Shown: in pieces, positions 50,090 through 58,905 of the stretch
How the letters are laid out: each line of letters begins with the position of its first letter
Position numbering within the stretch: position 1 is the first letter of the stretch
Source of the DNA: Streptomyces sp. NBC_00376
Lineage (GTDB): Bacteria; Actinomycetota; Actinomycetes; Streptomycetales; Streptomycetaceae
Reading direction: 5' to 3'
Assembly: GCF_036077095.1 (NCBI RefSeq)
Contig: NZ_CP107960.1
Location: forward strand, 1,302,001 to 1,366,000
DNA: 64,000 bases
Translations under genes and position numbers: made by a program
Notes under the pieces: generated by a model
The model's database searches: none
What the model was told of the DNA's origin: nothing
Seen by the model: only the letters and a program-made list of their open reading frames with translations

Positions 50090-50920
50090 CTACGGCTTGC
50101 GGGCGACCGCACCGTAGATCGGCACCGGCTGTGTCTCCACCGGGAGCTCGCCGAGGCTGAGTTCCGGATGCCAGTCGACGACCGACACCAGGCCGGGTTC
50201 GACCAGTTCCAGCCCGTCGAAGAACCGGCTGACGCCCCGGTGCGACCTCGGGACGAGCGTCATACCGCCCGCCGCGTACGAGGCCACCCCTTTCTCCACG
50301 CTCCCGGGGTCGAAGTCACCGGTGAGCTGCGACAGCACCAGGCAGCTTCCGGCGGGAAGCCGCTCCGTCAACCGCTCCACCAGCGCGTACGCTCCCTCGC
50401 CGCCGCCACCTTCATCGCCGTCGTCGATGAAGTGCAGGAGCGCGATGAGGGAGAGCGCGACGGGCCGGTCGAAGTCGATGACGTCGGCGGCCAGTTCGAG
50501 GATCCTCTCCGGCTCCCGCACATCGGCGTCCAGGTACGCCGTCACTCCTTCGGCACTCCCGCTCAGCAGCGCCCCGGCATGGGCCAGGACGACGGGGTCG
50601 TTGTCCACGTACACGACCCGGGCGTCGGGAGCCGTGCTCTGGACGGTCCGGTGCAGATTGGGCTCGGTGGGAATGCCGGAACCGATGTCGAGGAACTGCC
50701 GGATCCCCGCCTCGCCCGCGAGCCAGCGCATCGCGCGGTGCATGAACCACCGGTTGTGCCGTGCGATGTGCTTCGTGTCCGGTGAGAGCCCGGCGATCTG
50801 TCTCCCGAGCTCCTCGTCGGCGGGATGGTTGTCCGTCCCGCCGAGAATCCAGTCGTACACCCGCGCGGGATGCGGCCTGGTGGTGTCGATGCAGTCCGCA
50901 CCGGATCCGTACCCTGTCAT
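50090..50920 (-). CDS. DUF574-type SAM-dependent methyltransferase
   Basis: A 276-residue protein of the DUF574/Methyltransf_19 family, greatly expanded in Streptomyces. The N-terminal TRPHPARVYDWILGGTDNHP motif is diagnostic, followed by the SAM site FLDIGSGIPTEPNLH and VYVDNDPVVLAHA. The C-terminus ends LGELPVETQPVPIYGAV. Substrates are unknown. It is a paralogue of the gene at 51042; the two are separated by 121 bp and are read in the same direction. Confidence 0.92.
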   Translation of the reverse strand: MTGYGSGADCIDTTRPHPARVYDWILGGTDNHPADEELGRQIAGLSPDTKHIARHNRWFMHRAMRWLAGEAGIRQFLDIGSGIPTEPNLHRTVQSTAPDARVVYVDNDPVVLAHAGALLSGSAEGVTAYLDADVREPERILELAADVIDFDRPVALSLIALLHFIDDGDEGGGGEGAYALVERLTERLPAGSCLVLSQLTGDFDPGSVEKGVASYAAGGMTLVPRSHRGVSRFFDGLELVEPGLVSVVDWHPELSLGELPVETQPVPIYGAVARKP

Positions 50921-51041: not shown

Positions 51042-51866
51042 TCACTCCTTGACGCCGATCCCCCCGAAGGCGTCGACGTCCGCGGGCACGGTCGCGCTGT
51101 CGGCGTCGGGCCGCCACTCGCTGAGCCGGACGAAGCCGGGGTCGAGGATCCGCAGCCCGTCGAAGAGCGTGACGATCTCGTCCGGCTCGCGCACGTAGTA
51201 CGGAACCGCGCCGCTCTCGATGTACGCCTTCTCCGCGGCGATCATGCCCTCGCTGGTGCGCGTGCCGTCGTACACCACCAGGTAGCTGCCGGCCGGCAGC
51301 CCCGCCATCAGCCGGCCGACCACCTCGCGGGCCTTGGTGAAGTCGTCCGCGTGACCGAGGATGCCGAGCAGCATCAGGGCCACGGGCCGGTCGAAGTCGA
51401 GCGTCTTCGCCGCCTCGGCCAGGATGCTGTCCGGGTCGTAGAGGTCGGCGTCGATGTAGTCGGTCACGCCCTCGGACGAACTGGTCAGCAGCGCGCGGGC
51501 GTGCGTCAGCACGAGCGGGTCGTTGTCGACGTACACGATGCGCGCCTCGGGCGCGATGTCCTGGGCCACCTGGTGGGTGTTGTCCGCGGTGGGCAGGCCG
51601 GTCCCGATGTCCAGGAACTGCCGGACCCCCCGCTCCTGAACGAGGTGGCTCACCGAACGCCGCAGGAACTGCCGCCCCGCCACCGCCACGTCGACGAGTC
51701 CCGGGAAGAACGCCTTGATCTGGTCACCGATCTCACGGTCGACCTCGTAGTTGTCCTTCCCGCCCACGAAGTAGTTCCAGAAGCGGGCGGAATGAGGCCT
51801 GGTGGTGTCGATCCGTTCCGACACCGGCCTGGCGGGAGGGGTGACGGACGGCTGCTGCTCACTCAT
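51042..51866 (-). CDS. DUF574-type SAM-dependent methyltransferase (paralogue)
   Basis: A 274-residue paralogue of the preceding methyltransferase: TRPHSARFWNYFVGGKDNYE, FLDIGTGLPTADNTHQ and IVYVDNDPLVLTHARALL. GGAGGTCTCC precedes the ATG. The YVGGKDNYEVDRE form is the commonest DUF574 variant. Divergence between the copies in the N-terminal motif (ILGGTDN versus FVGGKDN) suggests old duplication and different targets. Its promoter must lie in the spacer shared with the divergent GtrA gene. Confidence 0.93.
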   Translation of the reverse strand: MSEQQPSVTPPARPVSERIDTTRPHSARFWNYFVGGKDNYEVDREIGDQIKAFFPGLVDVAVAGRQFLRRSVSHLVQERGVRQFLDIGTGLPTADNTHQVAQDIAPEARIVYVDNDPLVLTHARALLTSSSEGVTDYIDADLYDPDSILAEAAKTLDFDRPVALMLLGILGHADDFTKAREVVGRLMAGLPAGSYLVVYDGTRTSEGMIAAEKAYIESGAVPYYVREPDEIVTLFDGLRILDPGFVRLSEWRPDADSATVPADVDAFGGIGVKE

Positions 51867-52099: not shown

Positions 52100-52591
52100 G
52101 TGACCGCCCCAACGCGTCTGCGGACGCGCGCCCTTCGGCCACTCCTCGCGGCCTTCGCGCGGTTCGTCGTGTGTGGCGGCGGGGTCGGGCTGGCGTCGAG
52201 CGCGGCGGTGGTGCTGCTCAGCGCGCGCATGCCGATGGCCGTTGCGAACGCACTGGTCACCGTGGTCTCCACGGTCGTCGCGACCGAGTTGCACCGACGG
52301 ATCTCGTTCCGGAGCGAACGTAGGGGGTGGGGGGTCCATCTCCAGTCCGGGGCGACGGTCGCCGTGAGCTATGCGTTCACGACGGGGGCGCTGCTGTGCC
52401 TGTTCGCCGTGCAGCCTGCTCCCTCCCCCCTGCTGGCGCAGACGGTCTATCTGTCGGCGTCCGCTCTGGCGGGGGTCGGACGGTTCGTGTTGCTGCGGGT
52501 CGTCGTCTTCGGGAACCGCACGCGGAGGGGGCGCGGGCGCGCTCCGCACGACGACACTCTGGGCAAGTCCTCCGTGGCGATGGCCGTGTGA
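52100..52591 (+). CDS. GtrA-family membrane protein
   Basis: A 163-residue protein with four predicted transmembrane helices (FVVCGGGVGLASSAAVVLLS is the first). The helix-2 region ends LHRRISFRSERRG, typical of GtrA. GtrA proteins are thought to flip or present lipid-linked sugars for cell-surface polysaccharide or teichoic acid decoration. GTG at 52100 follows ACGGAGG. The stop overlaps a possible GTG (52588) of the next gene, a glycosyl/glycerophosphotransferase, so the two probably act together on the envelope. Confidence 0.85.
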   Translation: MTAPTRLRTRALRPLLAAFARFVVCGGGVGLASSAAVVLLSARMPMAVANALVTVVSTVVATELHRRISFRSERRGWGVHLQSGATVAVSYAFTTGALLCLFAVQPAPSPLLAQTVYLSASALAGVGRFVLLRVVVFGNRTRRGRGRAPHDDTLGKSSVAMAV

Positions 52592-52698
52592 CGCCCCCTC
52601 GGTGGCCCGACCGGCGATCGTGCTGGTTGACTGGCGTGGCCGGTCGCACGGGCGGTACGGAGCCTGCGGGCGGGCCGGGGCGGATGAGGGGCTTGTGG

Positions 52699-54545
52699 AT
52701 GGAGTACGGGCGGGCCGGGTGGGTCCGGGTGCCGGTGGGGGACGACGCCGCACGGTGGGCGACCCGGGGGAAGTGCCTGCGGGTGCTGGTCGTCGTGCAC
52801 AACGTGACCGCCGCGACGCGGCTGCTCGATGTGCTGCCCCTGTTCGACGACGATCTGCGGGTCCAGTTGCTGGTGACCTGCACGGGCTCCTCGGCCTTCG
52901 CGGCCGGCACGGCCGAGCTGCTGGCCGACACGGGGGTGCCGGTGCTGCCGTGGGAGCAGGCGGTCGAGACCGGGGTGGACCTGGTCGTATCCGCCAGCTT
53001 CGGCGGTCAACTGGAGGCGTTGTCCGGGAAGTTGGCCGTCCTTTCGCACGGTGTTGGATACACTAAAAGGCTGGCGACACCGGACACCGGACACCGGACA
53101 CCGGACACCGGACACCGGACACCGGATCGGGGGCGGGGGCGCCCGTGTTCGGGCTCGCGCCTCCGTGGCTGCTGTCGAGCCGGGGCACTCCCGTCGCGGA
53201 CGCGCTCGTGCTCTCCCACCCCGAGCAGGTCGAGCGCTTGCGCCTCGCCTGCCCCGAGGCCGCACCGACCGCCGTGCTCGCCGGAGACCCCTGCTTCGAC
53301 CGGATGCTCGCCGCACGACCGCGCCGCGAACGCTTCCGCCGCGCGTTGGGAGTCCGGCCCGGTCAGCGGCTCGTCCTGCTCAACTCGACCTGGAACTCCG
53401 AGTCGCTCTTCGGTGACGGGGCCGAGGTCCCGGGGGACGGCTGGTGCGGAGGCGATGTGGTCGCCGCCCTGCTGGACCGGGTCGCCGACGAGTTCCCCGT
53501 GGACGAGTACCGGTTCGCGGCCGTACTGCATCCCAACATCTGGCACGGGCACGGCCCCGGTCAGATCCGTGCCTGGCTCGATCGGGCGCGGCGCGGCGGG
53601 CTGGCCCTGATCGATCCGCTGACCGGGTGGCGACAGGCCCTGCTGGCGGCCGATGCCGTGATCGGTGACCACGGATCCGTCACCTTCTACGCGGCCGCCC
53701 TCGGCACCCCGGTGCTCCTGGGCGCCGCGCCCCTCCACGCCCTGGACCCCGACGCGCCGATCTCCGCGTTCATGCGGGAGGCACCGAGGCTCGACCCCGA
53801 CGCGTCCCTGGCGGCACAGATCGATGAAGTCATCGGCTCTCACCGGCCGTTGCCCGGCCCCGCCGAGTACACCACCTCCGTGCCGGGCGAATCCGCGGTC
53901 CGGCTCCGGAAGCTCTTCTACTCGATGATGGGGGCGCCGGAGCCCGGCCGGCCCGCCTCGCTGGAGCCGCTCCCACTGCCCGGGTACGAGGCCGGAACGG
54001 TCACCGTGCCGTTGCGGGTCCTGACCCGGGTGCTCGGGCCGGGAGAGGTCGCGGTCAGCCGGTGGGCGGGCCGGCGGTCCGGCCCGGGGTGGGACCAGGG
54101 CGGCGAACTGCACGTCGCCGTGCACGAGGACACCCGCGAGATGGACCGGCTGGAGCTGGCCGATGTCATCTTCCGGGACGGCGAACCCGACGATCCGCGC
54201 TTCGGCTCGCCGTCGCTCTGGACCGCCGAGGTGCTCCGCCGCCATCGGGGCTGCTCCCTGGCGGCCTATGTGACCGGCCCGTCCGAGTGCGTGGTCCGGG
54301 TGCGCGGCGAGGAGCCGCTCCGGATGGTGGCGGTGCCCGACGCCGAAACGGAGGACGTGTCCGGCGCGGACCCCGCCGTGTACGCCTCCGCCCTGAACGC
54401 CTGGCTGGCCTCGGACAGCCGGGAGGCGGTCACCTCCCGGGCGCGGCTGGCGCGGGCCGTGACCGACGGGCTCGTCCTGCGGACGGGCGACCGGCTCCAT
54501 CGCGTACGCGTCGCTCCTCTGACACCGCCGGACCCGGTCGGCTAG
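52699..54545 (+). pseudogene. GT-B-like transferase gene, frame-broken by a heptamer repeat (candidate phase-variable, OFF)
   Basis: The N-terminal part (EYGRAGWVRVPVGDDAARWA to KLAVLSHGVGYTKRLATP) is in one frame up to the heptamer tract at 53076-53124. The continuation (APVFGLAPPWLLSSRGTPVA to the end at 54545) is in another. Both belong to one protein of about 610 residues that resembles CDP-glycerol glycerophosphotransferase and GT-B proteins, with HPNIWHGHGPGQIRAWL and VIGDHGSVTFYAAALGTPVL. Seven heptamers leave the halves out of frame; eight or five copies join them exactly. ATG 52699 follows GAGGGG. GTG 52588, coupled to GtrA, and ATG 52684 are alternatives. A weak internal GTG at 53145 could start the C-terminal half alone. 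The function is inferred from fold and the GtrA neighbour. Confidence 0.75.
53076..53124 (+). repeat. Heptanucleotide tandem repeat, GACACCG x7
   Basis: Seven exact, uninterrupted copies of GACACCG lie inside a coding sequence. The tract encodes DTGHRTP repeats upstream and shifts the frame by one base for each copy gained or lost. Such non-triplet repeats are slipped-strand hotspots. Confidence 0.95.
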
Positions 54546-54578: not shown

Positions 54579-56711
54579 TCAGGCAGCCACGCAGCGCTCC
54601 CGCAGGGTTCGCAGATGTGCCAGGTGGTACGTCGCGCGCTGGCCGTCGAGGGTGGCGATCGCCGCCTCGACCAGCGGGAGCGCCGCCCCGGTGTTCTCCT
54701 CGTCCAGCCAGGTCTCGGCGAGATCAGTGAGGGTCCGGGCCGTGTTGTACGTGTCGCCGCTCGACCGGAAGTACGACAGCGCGGTCTCCAGCCTCCGCCG
54801 GGCCTCATCCCGTCGCCCCAGGCCGCGCAGCGCCCGTCCGCGATGGCGCCCCAGCAGGGCCTCGGCACGCGGCACGTCGCGAGTCCCCTCGTCCTGCCCG
54901 CCCATGGTGCCCAGGATGGCGCCGGCCTCCTCGAAGCAGTCGTACGCCTCCTGGTACCGCCACTGCCGCAGTCGCAGCAGCCCCAGGAACTCGACGGCCG
55001 AGGCATGGCCCCGCTTGTGGCCCGCCGCTTCCTCGGCCCCCGCCGCCGCCCGCGCCTGCTCCCCCGCCTCCTGCCAGCTCCTCAACTCGGTCAGCGAGTG
55101 GGCGAGTTGTGCGTGCAGCGCTCCGGCGTCGGCACTCATGGGTCGATGGGTGTCGACCAGGCGCGTGCCGATGCGGAGCGCCGGCAGCAGCATCTCGTGG
55201 TGACCGGCCTTGAGCTGGAGCGGCCACAGCGCACGGCACAGGCGTACGGCGGTGTCCGGGTCGCCGGACTCCTCGGCGCAGCGCACCGCCTCGACCAGGT
55301 TGCCCGATTCCGCGAGCAGGGCATCGAGGGCGGCGCCCCGGTCCGCATACGTCTGCCCCGTGCGGTCCTCGGCGGGCGCGGGGACCCGCCAGCTCTCCGG
55401 GAGCGCCTGGTGGGCGGCCGATGCGGCCAGGTCGGCGTAGGCGCTCAGGGTACGGGCGAGCGCCGCGGAGCACGCCGCGATCCCGTCGTCCCGGATCGCC
55501 GCCGCCTCGGCGTGCGCACGGACCGCGTGGCGGTAGTGGTAGCGGCCGCTGCCGGCCGCGCCGGAGCCTCGTTCCAGCAGCATCCGGTCGGCCAGGTCCT
55601 CCAGGAGCCCGGCCGCCTGGTCGGGGTCCTGGCCGGTGGTCCGGGCGGCCGTGGCGGCGTCGAAGGCGGGCCAGTCGCGCAGCGCCATCAGCCGGTAGAG
55701 CCGGGCGGATTCCGGCGTCAGGAGCCGGTAGTTGTCCTCGGCGGCGCCCCGGACCGGGTCGCCGTCCGGCTCGGCGCGACGTGGCGGAAGGGTGGGCGCG
55801 GAGAGCTGGTACGCCGCGGCGCGCAGGGCGTACGGCGACCCGCCGCAGCGCTGGAGCAGCGACGGCAGGGTGGCACGGGCGGCGGCGACCGTGGACTTGT
55901 CGGTGATGTCGGTGAGCAGCCGCACCGCGTCCCGGTCCGAGAGCGGGCCGACGGGCACCCGCACGGCGTCGATGCCGGGGAAGGGCGCGCGGGCGACCAG
56001 GACCGTGAACACCCCGGGTGCCGGGGTGAGGAACGGCCGCACCTGCGAGGCGGAGTACGCGTGGTCGAGCACGATCAGGAGTCTCAGGTCCGCCACGCGG
56101 TGGTGGAAGAACTCGCCGAGCTCATGGGTCCCGGTCGGCATCTCTTCGTCCGGCACCCGCAGTTGGCGCAGCAGGGCACGCAGTACGGTTCCGACGTCGC
56201 GCGCGCCACCGGCTCCGCGGCCCCCGAGGTCGACGTAGATCTGGCCGTCCGGGAAGAGGCGGGTCGGCTGTGCGCCGAAGTGCACGGCGAGGGTGCTTGA
56301 ACCCATGCCGTCCGGACCGTGCACCAGGGCGAGCCGGGGCCGCCCGTCCGGACGGCGGGACGCCTCCCGCTGGAGTTGCTTCAGCGCCTCCTTGCGATCC
56401 GTGAAGAACCTTATGGAGGCGGGGAGGTTCGACCGCGCGGCCCGGACCGGGGCGGGCTCGCGTCGCATGTGGGTGGCGAAAGCGGTCCAGGAGGCGGCGA
56501 GTTGCGGATCGGTACGGATCCGGTCGTGGACCATGCGGGCCACGTCGTCCCGTTCGTCCGGGGCCTCGGGCGCGGGGACCTCGCGGCCGACGATTCTCCG
56601 CACGACACCACCGGTGGATTCCCAGGCCCATTTGCCGGCCTCGTTGGCCATCCCCGAGCCGACCGCACCGAGCACCGCCGAAATCGCCGCCACCGAAGTG
56701 GGATCGAGCAT
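54579..56711 (-). CDS. NB-ARC/STAND-type protein with TPR repeats and degenerate P-loop
   Basis: A 710-residue protein. The N-terminal region (residues 1-45) is hydrophobic and Gly/Ala-rich (SVAAISAVLGAVGSGMANEA). A STAND ATPase core follows (about 100-400), then a helical TPR-like C-terminus (HASAVEFLGLLRLRQWRYQE, RALRGLGRRDEARRRLETAL). The P-loop reads GPDGMGSST at 132-140, with Ser138 where the catalytic Lys of GxxGxGKT should be. The Walker-B-like strand is LLIVLDHAYSASQ. It resembles AfsR-type NB-ARC proteins without a DNA-binding domain. It is divergent from the EccA-like gene. The start at 56711 is chosen because the longer frame crosses the divergent promoter region. Confidence 0.82.
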   Translation of the reverse strand: MLDPTSVAAISAVLGAVGSGMANEAGKWAWESTGGVVRRIVGREVPAPEAPDERDDVARMVHDRIRTDPQLAASWTAFATHMRREPAPVRAARSNLPASIRFFTDRKEALKQLQREASRRPDGRPRLALVHGPDGMGSSTLAVHFGAQPTRLFPDGQIYVDLGGRGAGGARDVGTVLRALLRQLRVPDEEMPTGTHELGEFFHHRVADLRLLIVLDHAYSASQVRPFLTPAPGVFTVLVARAPFPGIDAVRVPVGPLSDRDAVRLLTDITDKSTVAAARATLPSLLQRCGGSPYALRAAAYQLSAPTLPPRRAEPDGDPVRGAAEDNYRLLTPESARLYRLMALRDWPAFDAATAARTTGQDPDQAAGLLEDLADRMLLERGSGAAGSGRYHYRHAVRAHAEAAAIRDDGIAACSAALARTLSAYADLAASAAHQALPESWRVPAPAEDRTGQTYADRGAALDALLAESGNLVEAVRCAEESGDPDTAVRLCRALWPLQLKAGHHEMLLPALRIGTRLVDTHRPMSADAGALHAQLAHSLTELRSWQEAGEQARAAAGAEEAAGHKRGHASAVEFLGLLRLRQWRYQEAYDCFEEAGAILGTMGGQDEGTRDVPRAEALLGRHRGRALRGLGRRDEARRRLETALSYFRSSGDTYNTARTLTDLAETWLDEENTGAALPLVEAAIATLDGQRATYHLAHLRTLRERCVAA

Positions 56712-57075
56712 GTCGCGCACTCCTCGTTCCCGGTGTTCCGCGCGATGCGCCCTCCCCGGCACCGTCGCTGTCACCGTGCGGATCAACGTTAGCGTCAGAG
56801 GGGCCGATCTCCTCCGGGCATCGCGGGGTGATCGCCGTCCTGGCGTGCGCCAACCGTCCAACTGTCCTGAAAGCGACCTTTCGTAGACGTCGACGTCCGG
56901 TTCATCGCCGCCCTTCGCCACCCTTGTGCCGACGCGGTCGAAGGGGCGCCGAGTGTGTTCACCGGCCGCCGCGTCATGATGGATGTCTTGGATATCCTGG
57001 CGGTTGTTCCAGGTCGTCACGGCGAGCCCCGTCGGCCGTCGGCGCACGGGCCGGGGCCCGTCGAGGGGAGTATCG
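56712..57075. other. Divergent intergenic region between NB-ARC and EccA-like genes
   Basis: This 364-bp spacer contains no gene I can support. It should hold both promoters. AACGTTAGCGT near 56787 and TTGGATATCC near 56988 are the only lower-GC spots noticed; no clear -35/-10 pair was found. Confidence 0.4.
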
Positions 57076-58905
57076 GTGCAGGGAACAGCCGCAGGCCGGG
57101 GTTCGCCCAGGAAGGCCGAGCAGGCGTGGCAGCAGGCAGTGGCCCTGCTGAACCAGGGCAATGAAGCGGCAGCCGCCGAACGGTTCTCGTTCGCCGCCGC
57201 GCACGATCCTCTGGCCGCGGACGCATGGCTGGGGCTGCATGCGACCGGGCAGCGTCAGAAGGAGGCGCTGGACGGCATGGTCCGGGCGTCCGGCTTCTTC
57301 GGCGCGTTGCGTTCGAAGTTCGGGATGCCGCTGCGGTCCCGGTTCCAGCTCGGCCACTACGTCACGTTCCGGCTGGAGAACGCCCGTGACCTGTGGGTGG
57401 CGGCCATGACCTCGCTGCTGGACGCCGGCAAGCTCGACGAGGCCTGGGCCGGGCTGTCCACGGCCCAACTGGACTGCGACGAGACCCGGTTCGTCTGTAC
57501 GCGGTACGCCTTCCTCAAGGAGGACTGGGCCCTCGTGCTCCGTTTCGCCCCGGGCATCCGTGACGCGTTCCTGCACGACGAGGCGCAGCTGTACGTGGGG
57601 GCGGCGCTGTTCGCGCAGGGGGTCTGCCACGAGGCCCTGAACGTGCTGGCGGAGCTGCCGAAGAAGCTGGAGACGGGGAGCCGTTTCGACGCGGAGGTCA
57701 AGTACTTCATGGGCCGGTCCCTGGAGTCGCTGGGCCGGCCGGAGGAGGCGCTGAAGCGGTACCAGTACGCGTTCCGGTGTGCGCCGAACCTCTTGGACGT
57801 GAACGTAAGGGCGCAGGCACGTTCCACGGCTCCGACGGCTTCGTCCGTGGCCGGGGAGTCCCCCGCGCCTTCGTCCCCGCCCCCCTCCCCGGAGGGGCCC
57901 CCGCCGCCCCGCACGGCCGCGCCCTCCCCCGTACCCGCTGCACCCGCTGCCCCGGTGGCCGCTCCGGGCGCCGGGCCGGACTCCGCATCGGCGGAGACGG
58001 ACGGGACGGGCGGGCTGTCGCGGGAGGAGATGGCGCGCCTGCTCGCGGAGGCCCAGCAGGCGCTGGACGGCATGATCGGTCTGGAGCCGGTGAAGCGGCA
58101 GGTGCTCACGCTGATCGCACAGCTGCGCATGGCGGCACTCCGCGAGGAGCAGGGCCTGCCCAGCGGCGCCCGGCCCCGGCACTTCGTCTTCGCGGGACCG
58201 CCCGGCACCGGCAAGACCACCGTCGCCCGCATCATCGGCAAGGTCTTCGCCGGGCTGGGGCTGCTGCGGTCCGGCCATGTCATCGAGGCCCAGCGCGTCG
58301 ACCTCGTCGGGCAGCACCTCGGCTCGACCGCGATCAAGACCAGCAAGGTCATCGACTCCGCCCTGAACGGCGTGCTGTTCATCGACGAGGCGTACGCCCT
58401 GTCCAACAGCGGGTACAGCGGTGGCGACGCGTTCGGCGACGAGGCGCTCCAGGTGCTCCTGAAGCGGGCCGAGGACGACCGGGACCGGCTCGTCGTCGTA
58501 CTGGCCGGATACCGCGAGGAGATGACCGGTCTGCTCGCCGCCAACCCGGGCCTGGTGTCCCGGTTCAACACCCGCGTCGACTTCCCCTCCTACTCCGCCC
58601 AGGAACTGCTCCTGATCGCCCGGTCCGTCCTGTCCGGCCAGGGCGACGAACCCGACGAGGGGGCGGCGGCCGCACTCGGCTCGTTCTTCGCCTCGGCCGT
58701 GGACGGAGGCATGGCCGACACCCTGGGCAACGCCCGCTTCGCCCGCGAGCTCTGCCAGAAGGCCGCCGCGCAACGGGATCTGCGTCTGTACGCCGAACAC
58801 TCGGGCGGGACGACGCCCACCAGGCAGGAGATCGTCACCGTACTCACCGAGGATGTGACGGCGGCCCACCAGGAGCTCATGGAGTCCCACGGGAACCCGG
58901 CGTAG
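57076..58905 (+). CDS. EccA/CbxX-type AAA+ ATPase
   Basis: A 609-residue protein with an N-terminal TPR-like helical domain (about residues 10-245; QAWQQAVALLNQGNEAAAAE and GRSLESLGRPEEALKRYQYA), a Pro/Ala/Ser-rich linker (about 255-315) and a C-terminal CbxX/CfqX AAA+ domain. Walker A is GPPGTGKT (374-381), Walker B is VLFIDEAYAL (D437/E438), and the arginine-bearing GNARFAREL is near the end. This architecture is that of EccA, the cytosolic ATPase of type VII secretion, but no other esx/ecc genes are in the window. GTG 57076 follows GAGGGGAG. It converges with the next gene. Confidence 0.87.
   Translation: MQGTAAGRGSPRKAEQAWQQAVALLNQGNEAAAAERFSFAAAHDPLAADAWLGLHATGQRQKEALDGMVRASGFFGALRSKFGMPLRSRFQLGHYVTFRLENARDLWVAAMTSLLDAGKLDEAWAGLSTAQLDCDETRFVCTRYAFLKEDWALVLRFAPGIRDAFLHDEAQLYVGAALFAQGVCHEALNVLAELPKKLETGSRFDAEVKYFMGRSLESLGRPEEALKRYQYAFRCAPNLLDVNVRAQARSTAPTASSVAGESPAPSSPPPSPEGPPPPRTAAPSPVPAAPAAPVAAPGAGPDSASAETDGTGGLSREEMARLLAEAQQALDGMIGLEPVKRQVLTLIAQLRMAALREEQGLPSGARPRHFVFAGPPGTGKTTVARIIGKVFAGLGLLRSGHVIEAQRVDLVGQHLGSTAIKTSKVIDSALNGVLFIDEAYALSNSGYSGGDAFGDEALQVLLKRAEDDRDRLVVVLAGYREEMTGLLAANPGLVSRFNTRVDFPSYSAQELLLIARSVLSGQGDEPDEGAAAALGSFFASAVDGGMADTLGNARFARELCQKAAAQRDLRLYAEHSGGTTPTRQEIVTVLTEDVTAAHQELMESHGNPA

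Follow-up and report, generated by a model that had tools for sequence, protein, structure and literature searches.

A tract of GACACCG heptamers inside the gene for a GT-B transferase of Streptomyces sp. NBC_00376 is very probably a slipped-strand ON/OFF phase-variation switch, i.e. a contingency locus. The gene is located in the window, the stretch of 64,000 nucleotides analysed here. The genome comprises 10.04 Mb in 3 contigs, and the closest named loci belong to Streptomyces. The features that concern us are the following:

52100..52591, plus strand: GtrA-like gene upstream (PF04138 above cut-off), only a local neighbour.
52699..53075, plus strand: N-terminal half of the GT-B transferase (ORF, tblastn), with probable ATG at 52699 and an alternative start upstream at 52684.
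53076..53126, plus strand: heptamer tract, 7.3 copies of GACACCG, located in the inter-domain linker and proposed to be the ON/OFF switch (Tandem Repeats Finder).
53127..53144, plus strand: remaining GC-rich linker, reaching the VFGLAPPW anchor.
53145..54545, plus strand: C-terminal transferase half in the other frame, 466 aa, with a weak PF04464-like stretch and an extra C-terminal alpha/beta domain (domains assigned after the model of the relative L003).
52699..53610, plus strand: OFF-state reading frame, 303 aa, departing from the transferase sequence at the tract.
54579..57161 (open frame), minus strand: convergent STAND/NB-ARC-like ATPase with TPR repeats (TPR_12, AAA_22, AfsR-like and HaaT-like matches, all below cut-off).

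The tract was found by Tandem Repeats Finder at 53076-53126 with period 7, 7.3 copies and 100% matches, and is the only period-7 row among the 34 rows in the window. The first-pass annotation had counted seven exact GACACCG copies at 53076-53124. These are present, together with 2 further matching bases. The annotation had also regarded the two halves, which lie in different frames, as one transferase split by the tract, and this was confirmed from the ORFs. The N-terminal half carries the SHGVGYTK motif at 53044 and ends with LSHGVGYTKRL. The upstream frame from ATG 52699 ends out of frame at a stop at 53608-53610, and the downstream half is open to 54545. Since the upstream frame continues to 53610 (303 aa), the transferase gene is OFF in this assembly. 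The frame arithmetic of the annotation, one heptamer added or two removed to give a single frame, is correct. The junction predicted for eight copies is almost that of P0005 (Streptomyces sp. NPDC057575), the nearest in-frame relative of the window gene, whose C-half is 95.7% identical.

The proposed mechanism is simple. DNA polymerase slippage would gain or drop whole units in the disordered linker right after SHGxGY, which is likely a catalytic-loop motif. As three does not divide the unit length, every single-unit step brings the downstream half into the reading frame or takes it out. The in-frame product would be the complete GT-B transferase of about 600 aa; an out-of-frame allele would yield just the N-terminal Rossmann half plus a meaningless tail. 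The switch would thereby vary a surface feature, e.g. a phage receptor. Slippage is the presumed mechanism, and the comparisons of strains and species described below suggest that switching would be reversible within a clone.

Relatives were collected in several searches. From a scan of a genome collection with the C-half, the best 80 of 200 relatives were retained. Whole-genome searches gave a strong match in 58 of 246 Streptomyces genomes (partly shared with the collection scan), and an order-level search at E 1e-20 yielded matches in 104 of 245 genomes. The final set comprises 209 loci, of which 204 were located and 173 are distinct, identical C-halves being counted once. The 173 are composed of 147 orthologues, at least 53% identical to L003 in the C-half, plus 26 divergent members. 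The N-half was detected by tblastn in 136 of 138 loci. Five loci were left out of the frame counts: L142, L156 and L051, where the motif was not found, as well as L063 and L075, where the contig ends before the N-half.

Arrays of at least three copies are present at the tract site in 130 of 147 orthologues, and in 128 of the 130 the unit is not divisible by three. They sit between SHGxGY and FGLxPEW, at the same point in most relatives, and their sequences differ. Their periods are 7 (118 loci), 10 (5), 8 (4), 6 (2) and 4 (1); the other 17 orthologues have fewer than three copies. This means, the gene family carries within its coding frame the kind of tandem repeat expected of a phase-variable SSR, with a unit not divisible by three. 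By frame, 89 orthologues are ON, 33 OFF+1 and 25 OFF+2, so that 58 of 147 (about 40%) are OFF. This main count includes 5 rows flagged as approximate and 7 holding N; excluding them, 118 array rows are left, 70 of them ON. L092 was entered as ON despite a doubtful anchor (linker of 1035 nt with a stop inside). With the rows treated as independent, ON is found in 71 of 128 orthologues with a frame-shifting array versus 16 of 17 without an array (Fisher p 0.0015). The sole OFF orthologue without an array, L215, has 2.6 copies and an approximate anchor. The 71 of 128 also exceed one third (p 4e-7, rows again taken as independent), which fits selection for ON, but also frame maintenance without switching.

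The whole family set of 173 uses 34 different units. Thirty-two of them are frame-shifting, and 8 of these contain T. None yields a stop triplet in any frame, so the array is open in every phase. The unit sequence turns over while the site and the frame-shifting length persist. On the gene tree, a quick tree with many weak branches, at least 60 changes are required for unit identity, 49 for ON/OFF state and 15 for tract presence. The 58 OFF rows are scattered over this tree and need at least 49 state changes; judged from these sequences, the OFF state looks short-lived. Several database entries represent the C-half alone, about 463-498 aa long and named 'hypothetical protein'; 10 of these were fetched. 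In UniRef, some family members are named 'Translation initiation factor 2 / IF-2', probably a spreading misannotation.

Chance does not account for the tract. In 620 kb of the window genome, sampled as 31 pieces of 20 kb, it is the only heptamer array with at least three copies and one of only 4 arrays with a period of 4-15, at least three copies and at least 24 nt. The linkers of the 147 orthologues amount to 15.8 kb in sum and contain 142 arrays of at least three copies and at least 20 nt, compared to 4 in 248 kb of the remaining gene and 16 in 670 kb of flanking DNA. The period is a multiple of three in 4 of 142 arrays in the linker versus 11 of 20 outside; hence, 138 of 142 versus 9 of 20 shift the frame. 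Stop triplets are not depleted across the whole linker (172 in 15,482 positions versus 619 in 87,612). As single-stranded DNA, the tract folds better than every one of 200 shuffles on either strand.

The idea of heptamer arrays being confined to the transferase gene was rejected, as 21 arrays were fetched outside the known orthologues. Twenty of them are GAGCCGG arrays, picked non-randomly from a listing, and one is an ACACCGG array; 19 of the 21 lack a match to the family profile, and the L258 array is located in the linker of a divergent transferase. Of 121 Streptomyces genomes, 8 have a single (ACACCGG)4 array, which in 7 of them lies in the transferase gene. (GAGCCGG)4 is present in 28 of 121. 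Since GAGCCGG arrays occur elsewhere in Streptomyces, heptamers as such are a habit of the genus. The (GAGCCGG)n arrays L243-L248, L250-L257 and L259-L262 come from other Streptomyces genomes and lie mostly in non-coding-looking DNA near unrelated genes. L249 is a divergent family member with about 19 heptamers at the N-terminus, not in the linker, and might represent a second route to phase variation in the family.

Near-identical genes differ in copy number. In 29 natural pairs of a locus and a database protein with C-halves 97.7-100% identical, an exact-heptamer difference was found in 9, no difference in 15 (several of these pairs probably stem from the same assembly) and other lengths in 5. 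OFF versus ON pairs differ by +1, +1, +1, -1, -1 and +5 heptamers, ON versus ON pairs by +3, -3 and -9. Two one-unit ON/OFF pairs share a species name: S. atratus (L004 OFF, P0012 ON) and S. justiciae (L043 OFF, P0114 ON). In both, the members are on different contigs. Sister loci one unit apart and in opposite states are L099 (OFF, 5.3 copies) and L100 (ON, 4.3) as well as L088 (OFF, 4.9) and L091 (ON, 3.9). Because 5 of the 29 pairs differ by non-whole heptamers, e.g. L175/P0016 by -1 nt, other changes take place in the linker, too. Close strains thus show whole-unit copy differences with in-frame and out-of-frame alleles, as is characteristic of phase-variable SSRs. A single fixed out-of-frame copy number in all relatives, which the first-pass annotation had named as evidence against a switch, was not encountered; both whole units and frames vary among the assemblies.

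Both halves are under selection irrespective of the frame. In 118 orthologues, dN/dS is about 0.33-0.36 for the C-half and about 0.23 for the N-half, alike in ON-ON, OFF-OFF and mixed pairs. For the C-half, the median is 0.333 in 1007 OFF-OFF pairs versus 0.357 in 2433 ON-ON pairs. No broken C-half was found among the 118 orthologues of this first set and two among the final 147 (L221, 73 aa; L241, 250 aa), one of the two being OFF. Other inactivating changes, which had also been listed in advance as evidence against phase variation, are therefore rare. OFF alleles that are otherwise intact and under selection (118 of 118 in the first set, 2 of 147 broken in the wider one) are again what is seen in phase-variable SSRs. 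As purifying selection is the same and the C-halves are mostly unbroken, most OFF alleles should be recent or regularly restored. The annotation's proposal of a candidate phase-variable locus is supported by the relatives' whole-unit differences, their frames and this selection.

Four other explanations have to be weighed. If the gene were decaying, the tract would have grown by accident, and OFF alleles would be outgoing pseudogenes. Such a decay would account for 58 of 147 orthologues being out of frame and for the two broken C-halves; L221, L219, L241 and L218 indeed sit on long branches. However, the OFF alleles of the 118 set are under ON-like purifying selection on both halves with no C-half broken, the OFF rows are dispersed on the tree, and near-identical ON partners are known. 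The pseudogene reading, which we consider highly improbable, was rejected because of this selection and these partners. A neutral microsatellite could persist in a disordered, length-insensitive linker without any selection for switching. The disorder of the linker in the L003 model, the drift of unit sequence and length, and the heptamer arrays elsewhere in the genus with (GAGCCGG)4 in 28 of 121 genomes agree with it. Yet if the linker were tolerant, units of 3, 6 or 9 nt would be expected to prevail, because other units break the protein, whereas almost all linker arrays (138 of 142, compared to 9 of 20 outside) are frame-shifting. Furthermore, a repeat-free paralogue group has a fixed linker of 54 nt. 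We therefore regard neutral persistence as improbable.

The conservation of both halves in OFF alleles could also be explained if programmed ribosomal frameshifting in the repeat rescued them. But both wrong frames occur (33 and 25 loci) along with 34 unit sequences, so that no single shift direction or slippery site would serve. Ribosomal recoding was rejected for these reasons and is hardly credible. A separate start for the C-half inside the gene was rejected as well, since it is not conserved: GTG precedes FGL in 16 ON and 12 OFF loci, GTC in 43 ON and 21 OFF loci. Sequencing or assembly errors are a concern in GC-rich repeats, and 7 of 147 linkers contain N runs. Nevertheless, OFF alleles are found in assemblies of 1-4 contigs (window, L085, L099, L101, L104, L137, L175, L178, L209, L210, L217), and 9 of the 14 near-identical pairs with different lengths differ by whole units. 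On these two grounds an artefact, too, was rejected and has next to no probability. Homologues that are naturally two separate proteins, a further outcome considered in the first-pass annotation, did not appear: 89 of 147 orthologues and all 11 loci of the repeat-free paralogue group are single-frame, and a natural two-protein system was rejected for this reason.

These 11 paralogous loci, all ON and each with a linker of exactly 54 nt, are a natural control for the ON/OFF switch. One of them, L002 (L309), is encoded in the window genome itself at G000:C1:2869283-2870506 and is followed by a convergent TPR gene. Among the 26 divergent members, 20 are ON and 6 OFF, and 12 have arrays. A profile built from 15 diverse members had matches in 26 of 296 genomes of the class. 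Thirty loci from this class search were inspected: 13 carry an array at the homologous site, and 17 have no array or a site that is not locatable. On sequence evidence, the family has tract-free members, too. Arrays at the tract site are distributed over five family codes, f1 (Streptomycetaceae), f3, f17, f18 and f43. In f18 the unit is AAACAGG (3 ON, 2 OFF), in f17, which includes Nocardiopsis, arrays were found in 2 ON and 1 OFF loci, and f43 has an octamer array in the ON state. The arrays of the divergent members include the pentamers of L236 and L239 and the 39-copy heptamer array of L238, in a family other than that of the window gene. The pentamer AGCCG is repeated at the tract site 13 times in L239, followed by variant five-residue repeats, and 4.6 times in L236. 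A protein search with the Nocardiopsis gilva sequence listed 100 new proteins. The linker could be located in 84, and 56 of the 84 contain tandem repeats of 7 or 8 residues, 3 trivial dipeptides excluded. The genera with repeat-bearing linkers include Amycolatopsis, Lentzea, Saccharopolyspora, Actinomadura and Streptosporangium.

The enzyme has a TagF-like GT-B fold according to its structural neighbours, with TagF and UDP-GlcNAc 2-epimerase tied. Because of this tie, the fold is not specific for a glycerophosphotransferase. H117 and G118 are invariant in 36 aligned rows, and the linker is disordered in the L003 model (residues 127-136, pLDDT <50). The gathering score of PF04464 (CDP-glycerol glycerophosphotransferase), 22.1 bits, was reached neither by the window C-half (10.7 bits) nor by full-length L003 (9.9). 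PDB sequence searches gave no useful match. In contrast to TagF/TarL poly(glycerol/ribitol phosphate) polymerases and non-hydrolysing UDP-GlcNAc 2-epimerases, to which it has only 12-13% identity, the transferase remains below the Pfam cut-off, and its C-terminal domain (about 431-600) lies outside the matches to both. P0140 and P0217 from Solihabitans and Amycolatopsis, each about 1010 aa long, resemble fusions of the transferase family with a family-4 glycosyltransferase. The enzyme presumably adds or modifies a cell-envelope glycopolymer.

An envelope role had previously been deduced from the GtrA-like gene upstream. This gene is present in the window, but a neighbour of the transferase in only 9 of 138 loci, and GtrA was therefore rejected as a functional partner. 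As it is not conserved, the surface role rests on the fold and the two apparent glycosyltransferase fusions. Farther upstream at 51042-51866, an S-adenosyl methyltransferase gene (PF04672) is encoded on the minus strand; a similar-looking ORF beside it at 50090-50920 suggests a tandem pair. A convergent STAND/TPR gene accompanies the transferase in 130 of the 145 orthologues whose flank is long enough. The flanks of L002-like loci and most divergent loci were shorter in this comparison and revealed it in 0 of 11 and 5 of 15, respectively. When longer flanks were searched with the portion of the window gene starting near 56711, it was detected in 14 of 18 loci that are distant or paralogous, among them the repeat-free paralogue; convergence was taken from the coordinates. 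The exceptions in this longer-flank set are L293, L294, L298 and L302. Due to its presence at distant and repeat-free paralogous loci, the pairing of transferase and STAND/TPR gene is wider than the tract. L307 (14.2 kb) contains three transferase paralogues and several STAND/TPR segments in one stretch, which suggests that both duplicate as a module. Our guess is that the STAND/TPR protein acts in sensing or regulation.

Phase variation by coding repeats is usually regarded as a tool of host-adapted bacteria. Well-known slipped-strand contingency loci are the tetranucleotide loci of Haemophilus and the capsule genes of Campylobacter. The transferase gene resembles them in having ON/OFF frames, a surface-type enzyme and, within its coding sequence, a repeat whose unit length is no multiple of three. 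It differs from them in its mostly 7-nt unit, in the turnover of the sequence with site and frame-shifting length kept, in the position of the tract mid-gene between two domains, and in its hosts, soil actinomycetes of several families.

Excerpts of a study on Campylobacter jejuni describe the CDP-glycerol glycerophosphotransferase 06875 as phase-variable and required for adsorption of phage CP39 (PMC8949473). According to these excerpts, one isolate lacked a T in a T8 tract, nine different positions in the gene were mutated, and the authors saw no mutation in homopolymeric tracts of the type reported for other genes (PMC8949473). The first-pass annotation assumed that such a switch is hardly described in Streptomyces. 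This goes too far: as stated in part of a published account, Pgl of S. coelicolor varies in phase via a G tract in pglX with switching between 10^-2 and 10^-4, so the genus is already known to use short-repeat phase variation (PMC4365076). Both systems are based on repeat length in Streptomyces, but Pgl uses a homopolymer tract in the methyltransferase gene of a four-gene defence system. Unlike Pgl and known anti-phage systems, neither the L003 transferase nor the L002 paralogue nor the STAND/TPR neighbour in the window matched a PADLOC family at E 0.1. Tandem repeats with copy numbers that vary in isogenic populations are mentioned for another actinomycete, Mycobacterium tuberculosis, but in the excerpts the repeats lie in promoters and modulate expression instead of switching a coding frame ON and OFF (PMC12817950). 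In the excerpts of the GeneTack survey, reading-frame transitions in 1106 genomes are reported, some with tandem repeats ascribed to phase variation, and no such cluster of actinomycete transferases is described (PMC3711429). Heptameric repeats are presented, in the parts of a further paper, as over-represented in bacteria and little studied; for the intergenic ones of Xanthomonas and Nostoc, phase variation was considered unlikely (PMC4692102). 'Streptomyces' was absent among the matches listed from part of a 2025 review on phase variation (PMC11868660). Among the open-licence, top-ranked matches listed in our literature search, no publication dealt with this locus or with heptamer phase variation in Streptomyces.

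It is tempting to speculate further that transferase and convergent STAND/TPR gene form a phase-variable two-gene module in several actinomycete families, which would act against phages either by concealing a receptor or through a sensed response. Selection would keep a frame-shifting repeat in the linker while the repeat sequence is repeatedly replaced, i.e. the design would be conserved, not the sequence. We put this forward as a tentative idea that may well turn out to be wrong.

Annotation tends to hide the switch, as illustrated by database entries for the C-half only. The conserved site and frame-shifting length with changing sequence provide a natural comparative experiment on selection that keeps a mutable tract. 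In Streptomyces, where the gene is strongly matched in 58 of 246 sampled genomes, and in further soil actinomycetes, the coding-repeat switch appears to be a standing feature. Heterogeneity within clones of industrial strains, perhaps in their sensitivity to phages, could stem from it.
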